Assembly (NCBI GenBank): GCA_016234265.1
Contig: JACRFW010000004.1
Location: forward strand, 1 to 46,809
Direction: 5' to 3'
Length of the DNA stretch: 46,809 nucleotides
DNA from: Candidatus Magasanikiibacteriota bacterium
GTDB taxonomy: Bacteria > Patescibacteriota > Patescibacteriia > Magasanikbacterales > GWA2-37-8
Positions 9,589 through 20,277 of this stretch are shown in pieces. The notes under the pieces were generated by a model that was given only the letters and a program-made list of their open reading frames with translations, ran no database searches and was not told where the DNA came from. Within the stretch, counting starts at the first letter, position 1; each line of letters opens with the position of its first letter. A program made the translations under genes and the position numbers.

Positions 9589-10323
9589 CTAGGCCATCCA
9601 CCCCTTAAAATCACTCAGAAACTGCTGAACGACCTGGTCGGTCTTAAAATGCTTCACCATATCGGAAAAAAATTTTGGCGGCACCGTGGCAATATGCGCC
9701 CCGGCCAAAGCCGCGTCGCGAATATCTGCCACCGAACGAATACTGCCGATAATAATCTGAGTGGCGCTCTCTCCGCTATCAACTATTTGCCGCACTGATT
9801 GGGTGACAAACGCCGGGTCAAAATCTTTCGCGTCCAAAGCCTTCTTTTTCTTCAATTCTTCGCGCGCGGCCGCGGCCGATTCTTCCACTCCGCCGTCACG
9901 AATTCTGCCCCAAAATAAACTCACATAAGCCGCTCCAGCTTCAATGGCGAGCATTGCCTGGGATACAGTCATGCAGGCCGTACAGTTAACCGATACACCC
10001 GCCGCGCTTAACTGCCGGATCGTTTCCAGCTCGTTCCAACCGATTTGGACCTTAATGCTGATCGGCGGATAATTGAACCGCCTGACAAACTCCCTGGCTT
10101 GTTTCAAAATTTCTTCCGTGTCCCGGGAAAATACCTCCACGCTCAAGTGAATGCCCGGCCGATATTTTTTTATCAAAGCGATGATTTTTTCAATATGACC
10201 TTCAAAAGAACCTTTTGGTTCTTTTGAAAGCAATGATGGATTAGTGGTAATCCCCTGGATGAAACCGCGTTTTAATGCCGATTCAATGTCATCCAGGTGG
10301 GCGCTGTCAATAAATATCTTCAT
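9589..10323 (-). CDS. Transaldolase / fructose-6-phosphate aldolase family
   Basis: 244 aa; MKIFIDSAHLDDI, GITTNPSLL, SIKVQIG (Schiff-base Lys), VNCTACMTVSQAMLAIEAGAAYVSLFWGRIRDGG. Confidence 0.9.
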   Translation of the reverse strand: MKIFIDSAHLDDIESALKRGFIQGITTNPSLLSKEPKGSFEGHIEKIIALIKKYRPGIHLSVEVFSRDTEEILKQAREFVRRFNYPPISIKVQIGWNELETIRQLSAAGVSVNCTACMTVSQAMLAIEAGAAYVSLFWGRIRDGGVEESAAAAREELKKKKALDAKDFDPAFVTQSVRQIVDSGESATQIIIGSIRSVADIRDAALAGAHIATVPPKFFSDMVKHFKTDQVVQQFLSDFKGWMA

Positions 10324-10394: not shown

Positions 10395-10411
10395 TCCTAT
10401 TTAGCCAGTTT
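10375..10411 (-). terminator. Rho-independent-like terminator after gmhB
   Basis: Minus strand AAACTGG-CTAAATAGGATTGA-CCAGTTTTTTTATTTTT: 7-bp stem followed by a T tract. Confidence 0.6.
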
Positions 10412-10994: not shown

Positions 10995-11619
10995 ATATCT
11001 TTTGTTTAAGGCCAAAAATAATCAGATGGTGCAGGACCACATGCATCCCCTCCACGATCGGGGTGGAGTTGGCCGGAACGACAATGCCAATATCCACCAG
11101 GTCTTTCATCGGTCCGCCGTCAAAGCCCGACAGGCCGATAGTTTTGCCCCCGCTATCTTTTATAAATTGCAAACCCTTCATCAGATTTTGCGACCACTGC
11201 CCGGCCTTGTCCTGCCCGCTGCCACCATGAACGCTAACAGCTATACCGACACCGCCTTCAACGTACAGCGTGGAAAGCTGATGAACATAGATGTTATCCC
11301 AGCCCCAGTCATTTACCAAAGCTGTAACAAGGGGAATATTGTCCAAAAGGGTCATGGCTTTGATGCCTCTATCTTGCGGCGCGGCGCAAATGGTTTTGGT
11401 TAGATCGGCTACCAGGTGCGTAGCCGTAGCGGCTGACCCGCCATTTCCCATGACATACACCCAACGGCCATCCTTCCAAGCTTCAAAAAGTAGCTCAATC
11501 GCTTGATCCAACTTTTGGCTATAAACTACCTTAATGGCAGTAGCGACTTCCTGTACCTCTCCCAAAAATGTGGCCGCAAAAGACTGACGCGGTTGTAATT
11601 CTTCCATACTATTAATCAA
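10939..11619 (-). CDS. gmhA: Sedoheptulose-7-phosphate isomerase (SIS domain)
   Basis: 226 aa; VYVMGNGGSAATATHLVADLTK, VSVHGGSGQDKAGQWSQNLMKGL, GLSGFDGGPMKDLVDIGIVVP. Confidence 0.87.
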   Translation of the reverse strand: MINSMEELQPRQSFAATFLGEVQEVATAIKVVYSQKLDQAIELLFEAWKDGRWVYVMGNGGSAATATHLVADLTKTICAAPQDRGIKAMTLLDNIPLVTALVNDWGWDNIYVHQLSTLYVEGGVGIAVSVHGGSGQDKAGQWSQNLMKGLQFIKDSGGKTIGLSGFDGGPMKDLVDIGIVVPANSTPIVEGMHVVLHHLIIFGLKQKIYDYQQSKNSGYRETSYIS

Positions 11620-12133
11620 AAGTAACTAACGAATGAATAGTACACCCTCTTAAACGTTCCCTTCCAGCCATAGGAGTCATTTCAACAATAAATGATAACC
11701 CAACAATTTCTCCACCCAATTTTTTTACTAGCTTCACCGCTGCGGCCATGGTTCCGCCAGTCGCCAACGTATCGTCAACAATTATAACCCGTTGCCCGGG
11801 AGTAATAGCGCCCTCCTGCATCTCAATAATTTGGGCGGCGTATTCATAACTATACTCCTGCATGACCGTTGGAGGCGGCAACTTATTCTTTTTCCGAATC
11901 ATCGCCATGCCAACGCCCAATCGGTAGGCCAAGGCGGACGCTATGACAAACCCTCTGGCTTCAATGCCGACCACCAGATCAATCTTTTGTCCTTGATAAG
12001 GCTGCGCCAACTGTTCAATAATTTCCTTAAACATGGCGGCGTCTTTCAGGAGCGGAGCGATGTCGTAACAAACTATTCCCGGTCGCGGCCAATCATTAAT
12101 CTGGACAATTTTTTGTTTCAAATTTTCCCACAT
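11612..12133 (-). CDS. apt: Adenine phosphoribosyltransferase
   Basis: 173 aa; VVGIEARGFVIASALAYRLGVGMAMIRKKNKLP and PRPP loop VIIVDDTLATGGTMAAA. Confidence 0.92.
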   Translation of the reverse strand: MWENLKQKIVQINDWPRPGIVCYDIAPLLKDAAMFKEIIEQLAQPYQGQKIDLVVGIEARGFVIASALAYRLGVGMAMIRKKNKLPPPTVMQEYSYEYAAQIIEMQEGAITPGQRVIIVDDTLATGGTMAAAVKLVKKLGGEIVGLSFIVEMTPMAGRERLRGCTIHSLVTFD

Positions 12134-12192: not shown

Positions 12193-12210
12193 GATTGCGC
12201 TATTCACTAA

Positions 12211-12227
12211 CCCAAAACTATTTTGGG
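12211..12227. repeat. Small inverted repeat CCCAAAA-CTA-TTTTGGG
   Basis: Read directly; 7-bp arms, 3-nt loop, at the edge of the GC-rich unit. Confidence 0.7.
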
Positions 12228-12239
12228 ACACTGTACAGC

Positions 12240-12256
12240 GGGGGTGACCAGTCCCC
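12240..12256. repeat. Hairpin H1 GGGGGTGACCAGTCCCC, related to H2
   Basis: Read directly; 5-bp stem including one G-T pair, 7-nt loop; 13/17 identical to H2 at 13415-13431. Confidence 0.65.
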
Positions 12257-12307
12257 AGTAGGTCGTTTTCTCCTTTGTTGTCTCTTGCTAGGTAACTCGT
12301 AGCGGTG

Positions 12308-13240
12308 CTAGACGCCGGGGAGCGCCGTGCCCTCCAGGACGAACGTCGCCTTGAGCCGCTCGAAGAGCCAGTCCACGAGCTCGGGGGCGCCGGCGATGAA
12401 GCCGAGGCCCCCCTCGGTGGTGCGGTTGCTCCGGTGGTAGCTCGCGAGGTCGGGCTCGGCGAGGGCGGCGATGGTGCCGTTGCGGTAGTGGTAGTACTGG
12501 ACCGTGCCGCCGGCCGCCCGGATGATCTCGGCCGAGGCCCAGTCCCACGGCCACTGGTGCGGCTGGACGATGGCCTCGGCGCGACCGGCCGCGACCAGGG
12601 CCACGCCGAGGCCGCAGGAGCCGGCCGTCACGACCGTCTCCACCGCGTTGGCGACACGGTTCCCGAACCGCATGAACTGCGGCCGCTTGAGCACGTCCAC
12701 CCCGAAGAGCACGGTGGACTTCTGGCGGGGGCGCTCCACTACGCGGACGGGCTGGAACCCGCTGCCCGGTACGCCATCACGCAGAAATACACCATCTCCT
12801 TTCGCGCCGAGCACCAGGAAACCACCACGAACGTCTGGGGCGCAGATCGCCCCGCCCTGGTGCTCGCCGTTCTCCACCCGGTTCAGGACGACGCTCCAGT
12901 CCCAGCGCCCGCGGTAGGCGCCGGCGGTGCCGTCCACCGCGTCCACGATGAGCACCTCCCCGGGCCCCTTGACCAGGGCGAGGTTGTCGTTCTTGATGAG
13001 ATCCGGTCCCTTGCACTCCTCCTCCGCGATGAAGTACGCCCCGGGGAAGCGGCTCCGGAGCTGGTCCAGAAGGAACGTCTGGCTCTCCTCGTCGGCCTCC
13101 GTGCCGATGGAGTGGTGGCTGCCGCCGGGCTGTCCCTCCTTCACGGTGACCTTGACCCCGCGCGCCATGGCGTCCTTGACCAGGCCTCCGGCGACGGTGA
13201 CGGCGATCGCGAGCTGCTGCAACTTCCAAGAAAAGGGCAT
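12308..13240 (-). CDS. Inositol monophosphatase-family phosphatase, GC-rich/foreign composition
   Basis: Track ORF 12308-13294; start at 13240 (MPFSWKLQQL) preceded by AAGGAGCAGGCAC. IMPase motifs IAEEE, IVDAVDGTAGAYRG and WPWDWASAEIIRAAGGTV. Confidence 0.83.
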   Translation of the reverse strand: MPFSWKLQQLAIAVTVAGGLVKDAMARGVKVTVKEGQPGGSHHSIGTEADEESQTFLLDQLRSRFPGAYFIAEEECKGPDLIKNDNLALVKGPGEVLIVDAVDGTAGAYRGRWDWSVVLNRVENGEHQGGAICAPDVRGGFLVLGAKGDGVFLRDGVPGSGFQPVRVVERPRQKSTVLFGVDVLKRPQFMRFGNRVANAVETVVTAGSCGLGVALVAAGRAEAIVQPHQWPWDWASAEIIRAAGGTVQYYHYRNGTIAALAEPDLASYHRSNRTTEGGLGFIAGAPELVDWLFERLKATFVLEGTALPGV

Positions 13241-13271
13241 GTGCCTGCTCCTTGTGTGGGTGTGCTCCAGT

Positions 13272-13323
13272 GCACAACACCCCTGCTGCTTCAAAATATT
13301 TTAAGACAACAGGAGTGCTGTGC
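13272..13323 (-). repeat. 52-nt palindrome/RNA hairpin in the 5' leader of the IMPase-like gene
   Basis: 26-nt arms around AAAATATTTT. On the minus strand 20 Watson-Crick pairs, 5 G-U, 1 C-A mismatch. Confidence 0.8.
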
Positions 13324-13326
13324 AAA
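13298..13326 (-). promoter_or_regulatory. Possible promoter TTTGCA-N17-TAAAAT overlapping the palindrome
   Basis: Minus strand: -35 TTTGCA (13321-13326), 17-nt spacer, -10 TAAAAT (13298-13303). Confidence 0.4.
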
Positions 13327-13349
13327 GACTACGTTGAAAAGAACTTAAG

Positions 13350-13373
13350 GCAAAAATATTTATATATTTTTGC
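13350..13373. repeat. AT-rich near-palindrome GCAAAAATATTTATATATTTTTGC
   Basis: Read directly; 10-bp arms with mismatches only near the centre. Confidence 0.6.
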
Positions 13374-13414
13374 TCGTCGCTAGCCTTATTTTACAATCAG
13401 ACTACTGACGAACA

Positions 13415-13431
13415 GAGGGTGGCCAGCCCTC
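13415..13431. repeat. Hairpin H2 GAGGGTGGCCAGCCCTC, related to H1
   Basis: Read directly; 5-bp stem, 7-nt loop. Confidence 0.65.
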
Positions 13432-13440
13432 CGGTTTGAA

Positions 13441-13458
13441 ATCCGACAGGAGTCGGAT
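13441..13458. repeat. Perfect hairpin ATCCGAC-AGGA-GTCGGAT
   Basis: Read directly; 7-bp perfect stem with 4-nt loop, 9 bp from H2. Confidence 0.75.
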
Positions 13459-13482
13459 GGCCGTTGTACTTCGCGCCCACTC

Positions 13483-13560
13483 CTAGGCGCCGAGGTTGGC
13501 GAGGAGCGCCGCGACGTTGATCTCCCGCCAGTCCATGAACAGCCGGCAGACACCGGCCAC
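13483..13560 (-). CDS. Putative 25-codon micro-ORF coupled to the HIT-like gene
   Basis: Minus strand GTG start: (M/V)AGVCRLFMDWREINVAALLANLGA-stop. AGGAGG at 13566-13571 overlaps the stop codon of the upstream HIT-like gene. Confidence 0.4.
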   Translation of the reverse strand: MAGVCRLFMDWREINVAALLANLGA

Positions 13561-13569
13561 GGTCGCCTC

Positions 13570-14406
13570 CTACCGCCCTAGCAGGTGACCCAGCGTGTCC
13601 TCGTGCGGCCACGGGAGCGTGATCGGCGTGCCCTCCATCAGGGCCAGGTACTCCGTCCCGCCCCAGTTATTGAGGATGGGTATGAAGCACGCGTACACCA
13701 CCCGCCCCTTGATGAACTTGACGTTGATCTGGAAGTCGGGCGGCAGGCCCTGCGAACTCGTGAACTTCTCGGCGAACATCCGGATGATACGCTGGAGCAC
13801 GCCCGCCAGAGACTCGGCCGCGCTCTGGTCGAACGGACGCCCCTCGAGCGGAACGATGAAGCACTGCCCCGCCCGGTGCCCGCCGACCACTACTCGGAAC
13901 CCCTCCAGCTCGAAAAGCACGAGCAGCGACGAGGCGAAGTGACCGGCCACATCACGCTCTGGCCTCGAGAGGATGCGCTGGGCCGGCTCGAGCAGGTGGT
14001 AGTGCAGATGAGTGACGTTCTGCCCCGCCGTGGCCCCGACGTACACGTTGAGCCAGCGCTCACCAGCGATTGGAGCGAGGATGTCGCTCACGATCCGAAG
14101 AGCCACGGTGATCTTGTTCAACCCTCCCAGCGTCCGAAGATCCTCCTTCGACCAACAGGTCATCGGCATGATAAGCAGGTGGTTGTGGTACGGGGTGAAC
14201 TGGTTGGTGATCACCCGCCACCCGCCTTCTTCCTGGTAAAACCGAATCAGGCGCCCTTCCAGAGACTCTTCGTCTTCGAAGGGACACCTACCCGGGTTGA
14301 CGATGATGTCGGACTGCCAGGAGCGGTCGAGCTTGACACCGCGCCTGGTGCCGCCAGACATGGTCGGGATGCCACCGGGAAGCACTTCCAGGGAAAATTC
14401 CGACAT
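13570..14406 (-). CDS. HIT-superfamily / GalT- or Ap4A-phosphorylase-like nucleotidyltransferase/hydrolase, GC-rich
   Basis: 278 aa; FTPYHNHLLIMPM and HIT-like VTHLHYHLLEP. SD AAGGAGAG upstream of ATG. Confidence 0.65.
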   Translation of the reverse strand: MSEFSLEVLPGGIPTMSGGTRRGVKLDRSWQSDIIVNPGRCPFEDEESLEGRLIRFYQEEGGWRVITNQFTPYHNHLLIMPMTCWSKEDLRTLGGLNKITVALRIVSDILAPIAGERWLNVYVGATAGQNVTHLHYHLLEPAQRILSRPERDVAGHFASSLLVLFELEGFRVVVGGHRAGQCFIVPLEGRPFDQSAAESLAGVLQRIIRMFAEKFTSSQGLPPDFQINVKFIKGRVVYACFIPILNNWGGTEYLALMEGTPITLPWPHEDTLGHLLGR

Positions 14407-14427
14407 GGGTTCTCTCCTTCGGCTAAG

Positions 14428-14442
14428 GTAGTCAGGCTGGTC
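14428..14442 (-). repeat. GACCAGCCTGACTAC (minus), inverted partner of 14643-14657
   Basis: 14/15 identical in inverted orientation to GACCAGCCTGAGTAC at 14643-14657. Confidence 0.7.
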
Positions 14443-14443
14443 T

Positions 14444-14464
14444 TTCCCACCTCTCTAATGGGAA
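14444..14464 (-). promoter_or_regulatory. 5'-UTR hairpin of the HIT-like gene (TTCCCA-N9-TGGGAA)
   Basis: 6-bp perfect stem starting a few nt after the predicted transcription start. Confidence 0.5.
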
Positions 14465-14473
14465 GAACAAAGC

Positions 14474-14502
14474 ATCTTACTACAAAAGAACCGCCACGTC
14501 AA
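14474..14502 (-). promoter_or_regulatory. sigma70-like promoter TTGACG-N17-TAAGAT of the GC-rich unit
   Basis: Minus strand: -35 TTGACG (14497-14502), 17-nt spacer, -10 TAAGAT (14474-14479). Confidence 0.65.
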
Positions 14503-14543
14503 GAAGCTGTGCTAGAAGTGTCAACAGGAAGTTAAAATGTCAG

Positions 14544-14572: not shown

Positions 14573-14611
14573 TCCTCCAACATTTTGGAATAAATCAAAA
14601 ACTAATTTTGG

Positions 14612-14650
14612 GTCGGGAAAGTCGCTGGTTTGAGTCCAGTCCGACCAGCC
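14612..14650 (+). other. tRNA-3'-end-like / acceptor-T-arm minihelix-like sequence
   Basis: GGTCGG-gaaagtc-GCTGG-TTTGAGT-CCAGT-CCGACC-AGCC: T-arm-like hairpin (5-bp stem, 7-nt loop) bracketed by a 6-bp acceptor-like stem. No normal anticodon or D arm seen upstream. Confidence 0.5.
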
Positions 14651-14672: not shown

Positions 14673-15602
14673 ATGAAAAAATATTTTTTAATCTTATTTT
14701 CAATTTCAATTTTAATGGGTGGAATGTTTTATTATTTCGTAGAATTACCTCGTAGATTTGAACAAAAGACGTATTTCCATAATTTTGTAACAAATAATTA
14801 TGAACAGAGCCCTGAATTGCGGAACAATGATCTAAATAAGAGAATTTTAGTTCCACTTTTGTTGAATCATCCAATAAATTTTTTAACAAAATTTGTTGGC
14901 TACCATCGGGCATTTGAAGGTATCTTCTTAATTTTTGATATCTTTTCTTCTTTTCTTTTTACTTTTTCATTATTTCTCCTCTGTTCAATATGGTTCCCAT
15001 CAGAAAAATGTTTTACCATAATACTTTTTTCTAGTCTTTTATTTATTTTCACCTTTAAATCATTTGTTGCAGCTCCGTGGGATTTAATTCAACCCGGATT
15101 ATTTGCTTTAGGACTGTACCTCATCTATAAAGAAAAATTATTTTGGTTCTTAATTGTTCTTATAATTTCCACCATAAATCGAAGCACAAGCATTTTTTTA
15201 CCTATAGTTTTTTTACTATATAATTTTAGAAAACAATGGTTAAAGACATTCATTGTCTTTCTAACTTTTGGTATAGTAATTCTTTTTCTCACTTGGTTAA
15301 AGGGAAAAACAACGCTAGTTTCACCGTTTCAAACGATTATATCTAATCTCCGTTCACCCTTTAATTTAATTAATGGAATTTTAGATGTTACCATAATGGT
15401 TTTTCCTTGTTTGGTCATTTATTTCCAAAAATCTGGAAATAAACTACCCCCTTTTTTGAAAATTTGTATTTTAACATTACCGCTGTGGGCTTTCTTATTC
15501 ATCTTTTTTAAAAGATACACTGAAATAAGTTTTTTACCACAAATCTTTCCATTTTTTATTCCCAGTCTTTTTTATTTGTCTAAAATCGGTATACAAAAAT
15601 AA
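14673..15602 (+). CDS. Multi-TM membrane protein of unknown function, AT-rich
   Basis: 309 aa, strongly hydrophobic, plus strand, composition unlike neighbours. Confidence 0.75.
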   Translation: MKKYFLILFSISILMGGMFYYFVELPRRFEQKTYFHNFVTNNYEQSPELRNNDLNKRILVPLLLNHPINFLTKFVGYHRAFEGIFLIFDIFSSFLFTFSLFLLCSIWFPSEKCFTIILFSSLLFIFTFKSFVAAPWDLIQPGLFALGLYLIYKEKLFWFLIVLIISTINRSTSIFLPIVFLLYNFRKQWLKTFIVFLTFGIVILFLTWLKGKTTLVSPFQTIISNLRSPFNLINGILDVTIMVFPCLVIYFQKSGNKLPPFLKICILTLPLWAFLFIFFKRYTEISFLPQIFPFFIPSLFYLSKIGIQK

Positions 15603-18584: not shown

Positions 18585-19591
18585 ATAGTATTCATTGCCC
18601 GCGGCCGTTGAAGTATCACTTGCGTGCCACTGGCATCCACACGATAAGGGACTTCCCGCATACCCGCCGTAGCGAACACACGCCTGACCGCATCTTGCGA
18701 ACCGTCCCTACAATAAACCAAGAAAAACCCGCCGCCACCGGCACCAACAATTTTACCACCTACCACACCCTGCACCTTTGCTTGTTTGTAAATATCATCA
18801 AAGCGATCATTGCTCATTTTGGCAGACATTTGACGTTTAAGATTCCAGTGGGCATCCATCAGCTCCCCAAACCGATCGAGATTCCCCTGTTCAAAAGCCT
18901 TCAAAATATCCTGGCCGATCTGCTTTGTTTGGTGTTTGAGATCAATGGCATTAGTTTGATGATTACGAATAACAGTCTGCTGTTCTTTCAATACATCCAC
19001 GCTGGAACGGCGCACGCCGGTGTAGAACAAGAGCGTTTGCCGCTCAAATTGTTCTTGGATCGCCCGCGAAATATTGGCCGGCGACACGGTCACCATACCG
19101 CTCGGGGCAATGTTCAAGACACAAAAATTACCAAATGATGCCAAATAAAAATCTTGTTTGCCGTCTGGCAGACCCAGATCATCGGTTGCGATCTCAAAAG
19201 CTTCCTCGGCCAACTGCCAACGCGAAACATTTTCTCCTTTCAAGGTGTGGAGGGCATTCAAAAGGCCGACCAAATAGCTGGCTGAACTGCCAAGCCCGGT
19301 GCCGTCAGATACATCGGCCATGGTAGATATCTCTATCATTTTGGCAATGCCGGTACGCTGCAGTGCCGCCCGGGCAATTTTGTGTTTCAATTCGGTAATT
19401 TTTTCCACGGTCTCACTATCATGATACTTTAGCCGGATCAAATCATCAACCGGCGGGCGATTCACGCCCGTGTACATGTACAAATTGATCGTCACCGCAA
19501 AAATAAAACCGCCAAACTGTTGGTAGTAGGCTGGCAAATCGGTGGAGCCTCCGCCGAGCGGGAGACGAAATGGTGTTCGTGCTAATATCAT
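18581..19591 (-). CDS. hddA: GHMP kinase, D-glycero-alpha-D-manno-heptose 7-phosphate kinase-like
   Basis: 336 aa; RTPFRLPLGGGSTDLPAYYQQFGG, GTGLGSSASYLVGLLNAL, KIVGAGGGGFFLVYC. Confidence 0.82.
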   Translation of the reverse strand: MILARTPFRLPLGGGSTDLPAYYQQFGGFIFAVTINLYMYTGVNRPPVDDLIRLKYHDSETVEKITELKHKIARAALQRTGIAKMIEISTMADVSDGTGLGSSASYLVGLLNALHTLKGENVSRWQLAEEAFEIATDDLGLPDGKQDFYLASFGNFCVLNIAPSGMVTVSPANISRAIQEQFERQTLLFYTGVRRSSVDVLKEQQTVIRNHQTNAIDLKHQTKQIGQDILKAFEQGNLDRFGELMDAHWNLKRQMSAKMSNDRFDDIYKQAKVQGVVGGKIVGAGGGGFFLVYCRDGSQDAVRRVFATAGMREVPYRVDASGTQVILQRPRAMNTI

Positions 19592-20277
19592 GCCAGTGGA
19601 ATATTTTTTAAACGCTGCTCCAGTCGGACAATATCCTCCATGGTAGAGAGCCCCCCAATAGCTTGGGCCGACTGCACCGCCATCGTGGGGTGATCATGAA
19701 CAAATTGATCCACCATACTGGTGAAAAAAAATTCGCCGTTGGGTTTCTGCTTGGGCTGATAGGAAAAAATGTCCCGCGTAAGCACTAAGACGCCGTTGGA
19801 AATAAGGTTGCCTGCCGGATGCTCCGGTTTTTCCACTATTTCAGCAATGGTGCCGTCCTCACGCAACATGGGTACGCCATGATTCCACGGGTCATCAACG
19901 GTCCAACACAGCACGCTCGCCGGATACTGGAGACAGGCGGCAATATCCACACGGCTGGGAAACTCATCACCATTGATAAAAAGAAAACGATCATCGTGAA
20001 TAAATGGCTCGGCCGCTAAAAAACTATAGGCGCTTCCGAGCGGGGAACCATCAGCGTAAACAATAGATCGGCCATGAAAAGTGGTTCCGCAATACTGTTT
20101 GATCTGCTCGCCCAAATAGCGTACCACCATCACTGCCTCAGTTATTTCTTCAGGCAGCGCTTCAAAGATATAGTCAAGCAGAGCTTTGCCCGCAATTTTT
20201 ACCAATGGTTTTGGGATGGTGAGGGTAAGTGGGCGCATCCGTGTCCCCTCTCCAGCAGCGATAATAACAGCTTGCAT
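19588..20277 (-). CDS. hddC: Sugar-1-phosphate nucleotidyltransferase, heptose-1-P guanylyltransferase-like
   Basis: 229 aa; AVIIAAGEGTRMRPLTLTIPKPLVKIAGKALLDY; next to hddA with 4-nt overlap. Symbol inferred from context. Confidence 0.72.
   Translation of the reverse strand: MQAVIIAAGEGTRMRPLTLTIPKPLVKIAGKALLDYIFEALPEEITEAVMVVRYLGEQIKQYCGTTFHGRSIVYADGSPLGSAYSFLAAEPFIHDDRFLFINGDEFPSRVDIAACLQYPASVLCWTVDDPWNHGVPMLREDGTIAEIVEKPEHPAGNLISNGVLVLTRDIFSYQPKQKPNGEFFFTSMVDQFVHDHPTMAVQSAQAIGGLSTMEDIVRLEQRLKNIPLA

Follow-up and report, generated by a model that had tools for sequence, protein, structure and literature searches.

How did two very GC-rich genes, one HIT-like and one of the inositol monophosphatase (IMPase) family, come to stand in a heptose and glycan operon of lower GC content? 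The window analysed here is the whole of contig JACRFW010000004.1 (46,809 nt; assembly GCA_016234265.1) of a Candidatus Magasanikiibacteriota bacterium, contig G000:C25 in our numbering, which belongs to a 913-kb genome of 55 contigs that is 98.5% complete. About 818 kb of this genome was read in pieces, giving 663 open reading frames (ORFs) for statistics of the GC content at third codon positions (GC3; GC1 and GC2 for the other two), and relatives from the same family and order were sampled. G labels denote genomes (G000, the window's own; G008, same family, different genus; G017, another genus), and L labels denote stretches fetched from them, with coordinates counted within each stretch. 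We think it probable that the pair is a horizontally acquired, GC-rich, self-expressed module, and one of a class of such genes and mini-operons that has entered this genome, and genomes of at least two other genera of the family, at many intergenic sites.

The sliding GC content is 0.46-0.52 at 11-12 kb, 0.55-0.71 at 12.0-14.5 kb and 0.29-0.31 at 14.5-15.5 kb. Together with the GC3 of the genes and the genome-wide comparison, this bears out the original prediction of a GC-rich block with lower flanks and an AT-rich stretch at 14.52-15.6 kb. The IMPase-family gene has a GC content of 0.70, a GC3 of 0.92 and a GC1 of 0.70, and the HIT-like gene a GC content of 0.63 and a GC3 of 0.84. The remaining genes of the window lie at GC3 0.38-0.69, most at 0.4-0.6, and against the genome mean of 0.55 (standard deviation 0.076) the unit is foreign in composition, as had been claimed. 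The two most GC-rich 500-bp segments in all of the genome that was read both fall within the IMPase gene. The features of the unit are as follows.

12308..13240, minus strand: IMPase-family phosphatase gene, 310 aa, intact (Pfam Inositol_P; motifs EEE, DAVDGT and WDWA (PWDW))
13248..13253, minus strand: Shine-Dalgarno (SD) site AAGGAG of the IMPase gene (sequence)
13261..13413, minus strand: structured IMPase leader with three helices, conserved with G017, 49/49 pairs kept
13415..13462, minus strand: element E, two hairpins, GGCCATCCGAC..GTCGGAT..GAGGG-C-TGGCCA-CCCTC, one copy in the window and two in G017
13483..13569, minus strand: remnant of a HAD-family phosphatase gene, its last 28 codons and stop, in frame behind the HIT-like stop
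13570..14406, minus strand: HIT-like protein gene, 278 aa, intact (translation, motif, weak Pfam match)
14407..14470, minus strand: HIT-like gene leader containing a short hairpin (TTCCCATTAGAGAGGTGGGAA) and the SD site GGAGAG (sequence, fold)
14474..14502, minus strand: sigma-70-like promoter of the HIT-like gene, TTGACG-17-TAAGAT (9/12 in a consensus scan; pattern only)

By sequence comparison the best conserved part of the unit is the spacer between its two genes, which had been overlooked. Over the 220 nt from element E to the IMPase start, window and G017 share about 74% DNA identity (E value 1e-35), the IMPase proteins behind it 29-30%. The spacer folds far better than its shuffles (z score -5.6; 0/100 as good), in keeping with the structured non-coding DNA predicted for the unit. 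All 49 pairs of the IMPase leader are kept in both genomes, seven of them changed on both sides; shuffles did as well in 2/500 cases, and slid versions failed. A model of this leader matches 2/381 genomes of the class, those of the window and G017, and is absent from the two G017 congeners searched. The two G017 copies of element E sit after the HAD and the DUF218 genes. In this element, which hardly varies, the 5′ GGCCA could form a pseudoknot with the loop of the second hairpin. Among 380 genomes of the phylum, the element E model finds the window, G017 and one borderline place, and its pattern does not occur in the viral-contig collection. Rfam gives no match above gathering score for the spacer; tRNAs alone pass.

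The unit also holds the tail of a third gene. Past the HIT-like stop the frame reads EATVAGVCRLFMDWREINVAALLANLGA and then stops, and this is 63% identical to the C-terminus of a HAD protein of G017 (E value 3e-9 in a search of two proteins, 3.6e-6 in one of all loci compared); the DNA match extends onward into element E. The G017 gene order is HAD, DUF218-like, IMPase (L022:15029-17853), and the contig also carries heptose genes about 12 kb away. The two loci have in common the HAD tail, element E, the IMPase leader, an IMPase gene in last place, the nearness of heptose genes and a GC3 above that of the host. They differ in that in G017 the HAD and DUF218 genes are intact, a HIT-like gene is missing, the IMPase is 30% identical and GC3 is only 0.6-0.7, whereas the window has kept the HAD tail alone, has the HIT-like gene upstream and lacks DUF218. 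The HAD tail behind the HIT-like gene suggests that the unit is a decayed larger cluster, and not the simple two-gene cargo first proposed. The spacer and a related IMPase gene recur in G017, the HIT-like partner does not. Nor is the arrival clearly recent, the IMPase of the related cluster being just 30% identical. The module probably belonged at one time to a longer cluster that included a HAD phosphatase gene, of which the tail is left beside intact HIT-like and IMPase genes. The substrates of its enzymes may be small phosphate esters, either sugar phosphates or nucleotides, with a link to the glycan locus; the spacer, acting as RNA, may separate the IMPase message from the upstream gene and would probably control it at the level of translation, processing or stability.

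The genome contains further cases. At least nine other GC-rich genes, mostly orphans with GC3 0.82-0.91, stand between ordinary genes, so that with the window there are at least 10 such places and the acquisition is not a single event in this genome. ORFs of at least 120 aa almost never have a GC3 of 0.72-0.82, and the distribution is therefore nearly bimodal. These genes are listed below with their neighbours, whose names are taken from their sequences (ruvA, ribosomal protein L1, ileS, groEL, secE, gyrB).

L028:17886-18650: GC-rich ORF adjoining ruvA
L028:3984-4370: GC-rich ORF by the gene for ribosomal protein L1
L082:5879-6373: GC-rich ORF by ileS
L043:11726-12091: GC-rich ORF by groEL
L047:3070-3687: GC-rich ORF between secE and gyrB
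L083, L085, L027, L059: more GC-rich ORFs in the same GC3 range

None of the eight GC-rich proteins tested passed a Pfam cut-off, and two GC-rich proteins other than the window pair had no relatives in the viral-contig collection. Similar genes, with GC3 up to 0.96, occur in G017 (GC 0.40, median GC3 0.34) and in G008, where they include a fatty-acid desaturase, a radical-SAM protein and an EamA transporter. None were seen in G002, G012, G014, G004, G011, G027 and G036, a provisional result from samples of 20-100 kb each. The site next to ruvA holds no unit in G008 and measures 165 bp there. At ileS the GC-rich genes differ between the two genera (L107:1284-4942 in G008, L082:5625-7351 in G000), which suggests a reused insertion site. 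The mutM-thioredoxin region of G008 holds three GC-rich genes in series with one consensus promoter upstream (L140:8571-10762), and the same region of G000 (L027:14524-15500) holds other small GC-rich genes.

The members of this class have much of their anatomy in common. A promoter with at least 10/12 consensus positions (half a point added for an extended -10) was found within 300 nt of 73% of 26 GC-rich genes, versus 20% of 147 host genes whose upstream DNA is free. SD-like motifs precede 92% of the GC-rich and 18% of the host genes, a contrast softened by the uncertainty of host gene starts. The 120-nt 3′ flanks have a mean fold z score of -5.2, versus -1.7 for host genes (p 6e-7), and the 5′ flanks -2.5 versus -1.4 (p 0.015). 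Most of these genes combine a sigma-70 promoter close to consensus with a strong SD site and a strongly folded 3′ end, and so would be expressed wherever they land; the promoter and SD sites (GGAGAG, AAGGAG) predicted for the window unit are indeed present as sequence patterns. Synonymous codon distances are 0.36-0.68 among the GC-rich sets of the three genomes and 2.1-3.1 to any host, a likeness that is partly by construction since the genes were picked by GC3, and AGG makes up 8-14% of the arginine codons of these sets. A common GC-rich pool may be the origin of these genes.

Flanking elements recur as well. One structured element directly follows the stop codon of a GC-rich gene in G000 (L085:11920-12042, minus strand) and that of a different one in G017 (L093:6448-6570, plus strand), so that it occurs in two genera. 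Model R3 of this 3′ element finds 10 places in 9/381 class genomes, among them G011:C4:63490, G012:C3:53733, G017:C3:20365 and places in G023, G006, G049, G406 and G578. Two GC-rich genes of G017 are flanked on both sides by similar hairpin elements. One promoter and leader sequence (CTTGACAAAAGGCC..TTTTGTGCTATACTGC..) is present in three copies in G000 (L053:8530, L069:125, L085:12786), two of them near contig ends. Hairpins past GC-rich genes of G008 are also recurrent: CGTTATGGC..GCTATAACG and CCCCCGTGCGCC.CACACGTTC..AAAGTGGCA (L103:37-67 and the 2842-2872 region; 3′ flanks in L104 and L107).

G008 is a relative of the kind that had been anticipated, one that lacks the unit at this locus. 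Its operon is uninterrupted, in the order hddC-hddA-SDR-Gfo/Idh-epimerase-(about 270 bp)-gmhA-gmhB-transaldolase-methyltransferase, with proteins 51-79% identical to those of the window. The epimerase gene ends at 10128-10137 and gmhA starts at 10398-10404, and the gap holds no apt, IMPase, HIT-like or AT-rich ORF. Its counterpart in the window is a 3.5-kb segment with four genes of three differing compositions. The second foreign-looking gene there is opposite in composition to the GC-rich unit.

14673..15602, plus strand: AT-rich ORF, 309 aa, adjoining gene in the same gap, outside the GC-rich unit; GC 0.27, GC3 0.23

This GC3 is the minimum among the 663 ORFs of the genome. The product, probably a membrane protein, has no match in Pfam, NCBIfam or PHROGs. 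Composition favours gain for the GC-rich and the AT-rich genes. Family models confirm the window neighbours apt, gmhA, gmhB and hddA; for the gene at 19588-20277, position and synteny fit hddC. The placement of the unit between apt-gmhA-gmhB and hddA-hddC holds, with the refinement that the stretch from the unit to hddA also contains the AT-rich ORF and the epimerase, Gfo/Idh and SDR genes. The congener of G017, G021, was left out as an empty site, its flanking gene being just 39% identical. The apt gene (11612-12133, minus strand) is of ordinary composition; it, too, is missing from the gap in G008, and none turned up in the 726 kb read from that genome.

Several observations weigh against an acquired module. 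Synteny alone leaves gain in G000 and loss in G008 unseparated, and the analysis turned up neither a donor or vector nor a junction repeat or transfer gene. A spacer more conserved than the protein behind it fits an old, constrained RNA better than a recent arrival, and its leader covariation is based on two sequences only. The 3′ flanks of the window pair itself are ordinary (z scores -1.3 and -0.7), the fold signal lying in the spacer instead. The HIT assignment rests on a score under the Pfam cut-off, and the codon likeness is in part built into the choice of genes.

A distinct possibility is that single genes came by independent, ordinary transfers from various GC-rich neighbours, with no special system, the landing sites having supplied promoters and terminators. 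The diverse cargo (desaturase, radical SAM, EamA, phosphatases, orphans) would agree with this, as would the lack of a common flanking motif apart from the promoter; such transfers do not, however, account readily for similar codon usage across three genera or for leader and 3′ elements common to genera. Another reading, which we judge unlikely, takes the conserved spacer as the end of a mobile cassette, a DNA element for recombination or mobility and not a regulatory RNA. Element E does stand behind three different genes in two genomes, the R3 element has its 10 places in nine class genomes, and two G017 genes have similar hairpins on either side. Yet the spacer sits directly before the SD site, its compensatory and G-U changes suit RNA at least equally, and there are neither attC cores nor convincing flanking repeats.

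Could the genes instead be native and fast-evolving, their GC3 driven by selection on expression or mRNA structure? Their promoters are of the host type, and one form also stands upstream of an ordinary gene (L048). Some combine ordinary GC1 (0.48-0.54) and GC2 (0.42-0.47) with a GC3 of 0.90-0.96, and GC3 stays high even in a host with a median of 0.34. This origin is nonetheless quite improbable, as groEL, gyrB and ileS have no GC-rich codon use, presence is patchy among relatives, G008 has no units or different genes at matching sites, and the IMPase GC1 is itself 0.70. A chimeric assembly or binning artefact, to which the abrupt change of composition might point, is hardly credible because at least 10 such places lie between ordinary genes in one genome, the class recurs in two other genomes and the spacer is conserved in another assembly.

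The favoured reading, an acquired module of a wider class, has to be set beside known systems. As a compositional island the unit is of a known kind, an acquired islet. Like the unit, genomic islets and moron-like single-gene insertions are short, of foreign composition and equipped with a promoter of their own, often also with a terminator. The unit differs from them in lying in a bacterial chromosome and not a prophage, in being GC-rich and not AT-rich, in having many counterparts of like codon usage within one genome, and in its conserved structured spacer. Integron cassettes, including those inserted at genomic attG sites (the topic of PMC11023631 and PMC12444791), are likewise found at scattered places, mostly as single genes whose 3′ ends are folded. 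The GC-rich genes differ from them in having their own promoters; attC cores (RYYYAAC...GTTRRRY) were present in 0/23 of their 3′ flanks (0.2 expected in shuffles), and no integron integrase above the TIGR02249 cut-off was found when the whole genome was searched with PF00589. Integron cassettes are ruled out on these grounds. A 281-aa tyrosine recombinase (L128:1462-2307, minus strand, G000:C54) has the integron integrase TIGR02249 as its best NCBIfam model (239/265 bits) and passes the XerA cut-off only. The window contig has no PF00589 tyrosine recombinase, in agreement with the earlier statement that no integrase is visible; transposases were not searched systematically. No convincing flanking repeats or target duplications were seen at the GC-rich genes, 10 proteins had no match among PADLOC defence models, and PHROGs gave nothing usable.

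Only tentatively, and with some doubt, do we propose an undescribed mobile gene-cassette system that would work by a non-integron mechanism. Its genes, mostly orphans of high GC3, would come from one shared pool, and each would carry a consensus promoter, a structured leader, a strong SD site and a structured element at the 3′ end; they would occupy many intergenic sites, some of which differ in their genes from genus to genus. Neither the conserved spacer nor the genome-wide class was expected, and within a partial coverage of the literature both are undescribed, with no report of such GC-rich genes in Patescibacteria. If the acquired class is real, reduced-genome bacteria keep gaining ready-to-express, GC-rich genes from a common pool, mostly without known relatives, and the composition of these genes would point to unknown partners or vectors. 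The spacer is a new structured element that is directly testable, and a clear case of a spacer far more conserved than the enzyme encoded behind it.

The metal site of IMPases is marked by the motifs E-E, D-x-x-D-G-T and W-D. The window protein has EEE, DAVDGT and PWDW, in common with the G017 IMPase, and matches Pfam Inositol_P (PF00459) with an E value of 5e-24 (85.7 bits, cut-off 27). It thus shares fold family and metal-site motifs with the CysQ and HisN branches; its scores against these nearest NCBIfam models (CysQ, TIGR01331, 48.9/228.8 bits; HisN, 45.7/275.15 bits) are far under both cut-offs. Its best relative among 36 other family and order genomes is the IMPase of G017 (30%, E value 5e-23; next 1e-11), and none was found in the genome-contig or viral-contig collections.

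The HIT superfamily has the motif H-phi-H-phi-H-phi-phi, which HLHYHLL in the second protein fits; its match to Pfam HIT (PF01230) has an E value of 0.0044 and 18.0 bits, under the cut-off of 21.5. No family is assigned to the C-terminal half of the protein. Among weak HIT-domain matches in 287 phylum genomes, it is 27% identical to a HIT-type protein of G252 (E value 1.5e-7). A single weak partial match turned up among 95 near genomes, and no relatives in the genome-contig or viral-contig collections, phages or plasmids. A structure model from the single sequence, with a mean predicted local distance difference test (pLDDT) score of 41, was too poor for a fold search. The leader region of this gene as a whole does not fold better than shuffles (z score -1.5).

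When pieces of the island were searched elsewhere in G000, only chance-level matches appeared, one of them to the tRNA-Asp gene. The fragment at 14610-14647 (plus strand), GGTCGGG..GCTGGTTTGAGTCCAGTCCGACCA, resembles the acceptor and T-arm half of a tRNA, with 82% identity over 34 nt to the 3′ half of that gene. With an E value of 0.056 the match is at chance level, and a tRNA remnant adjoining the unit is possible.

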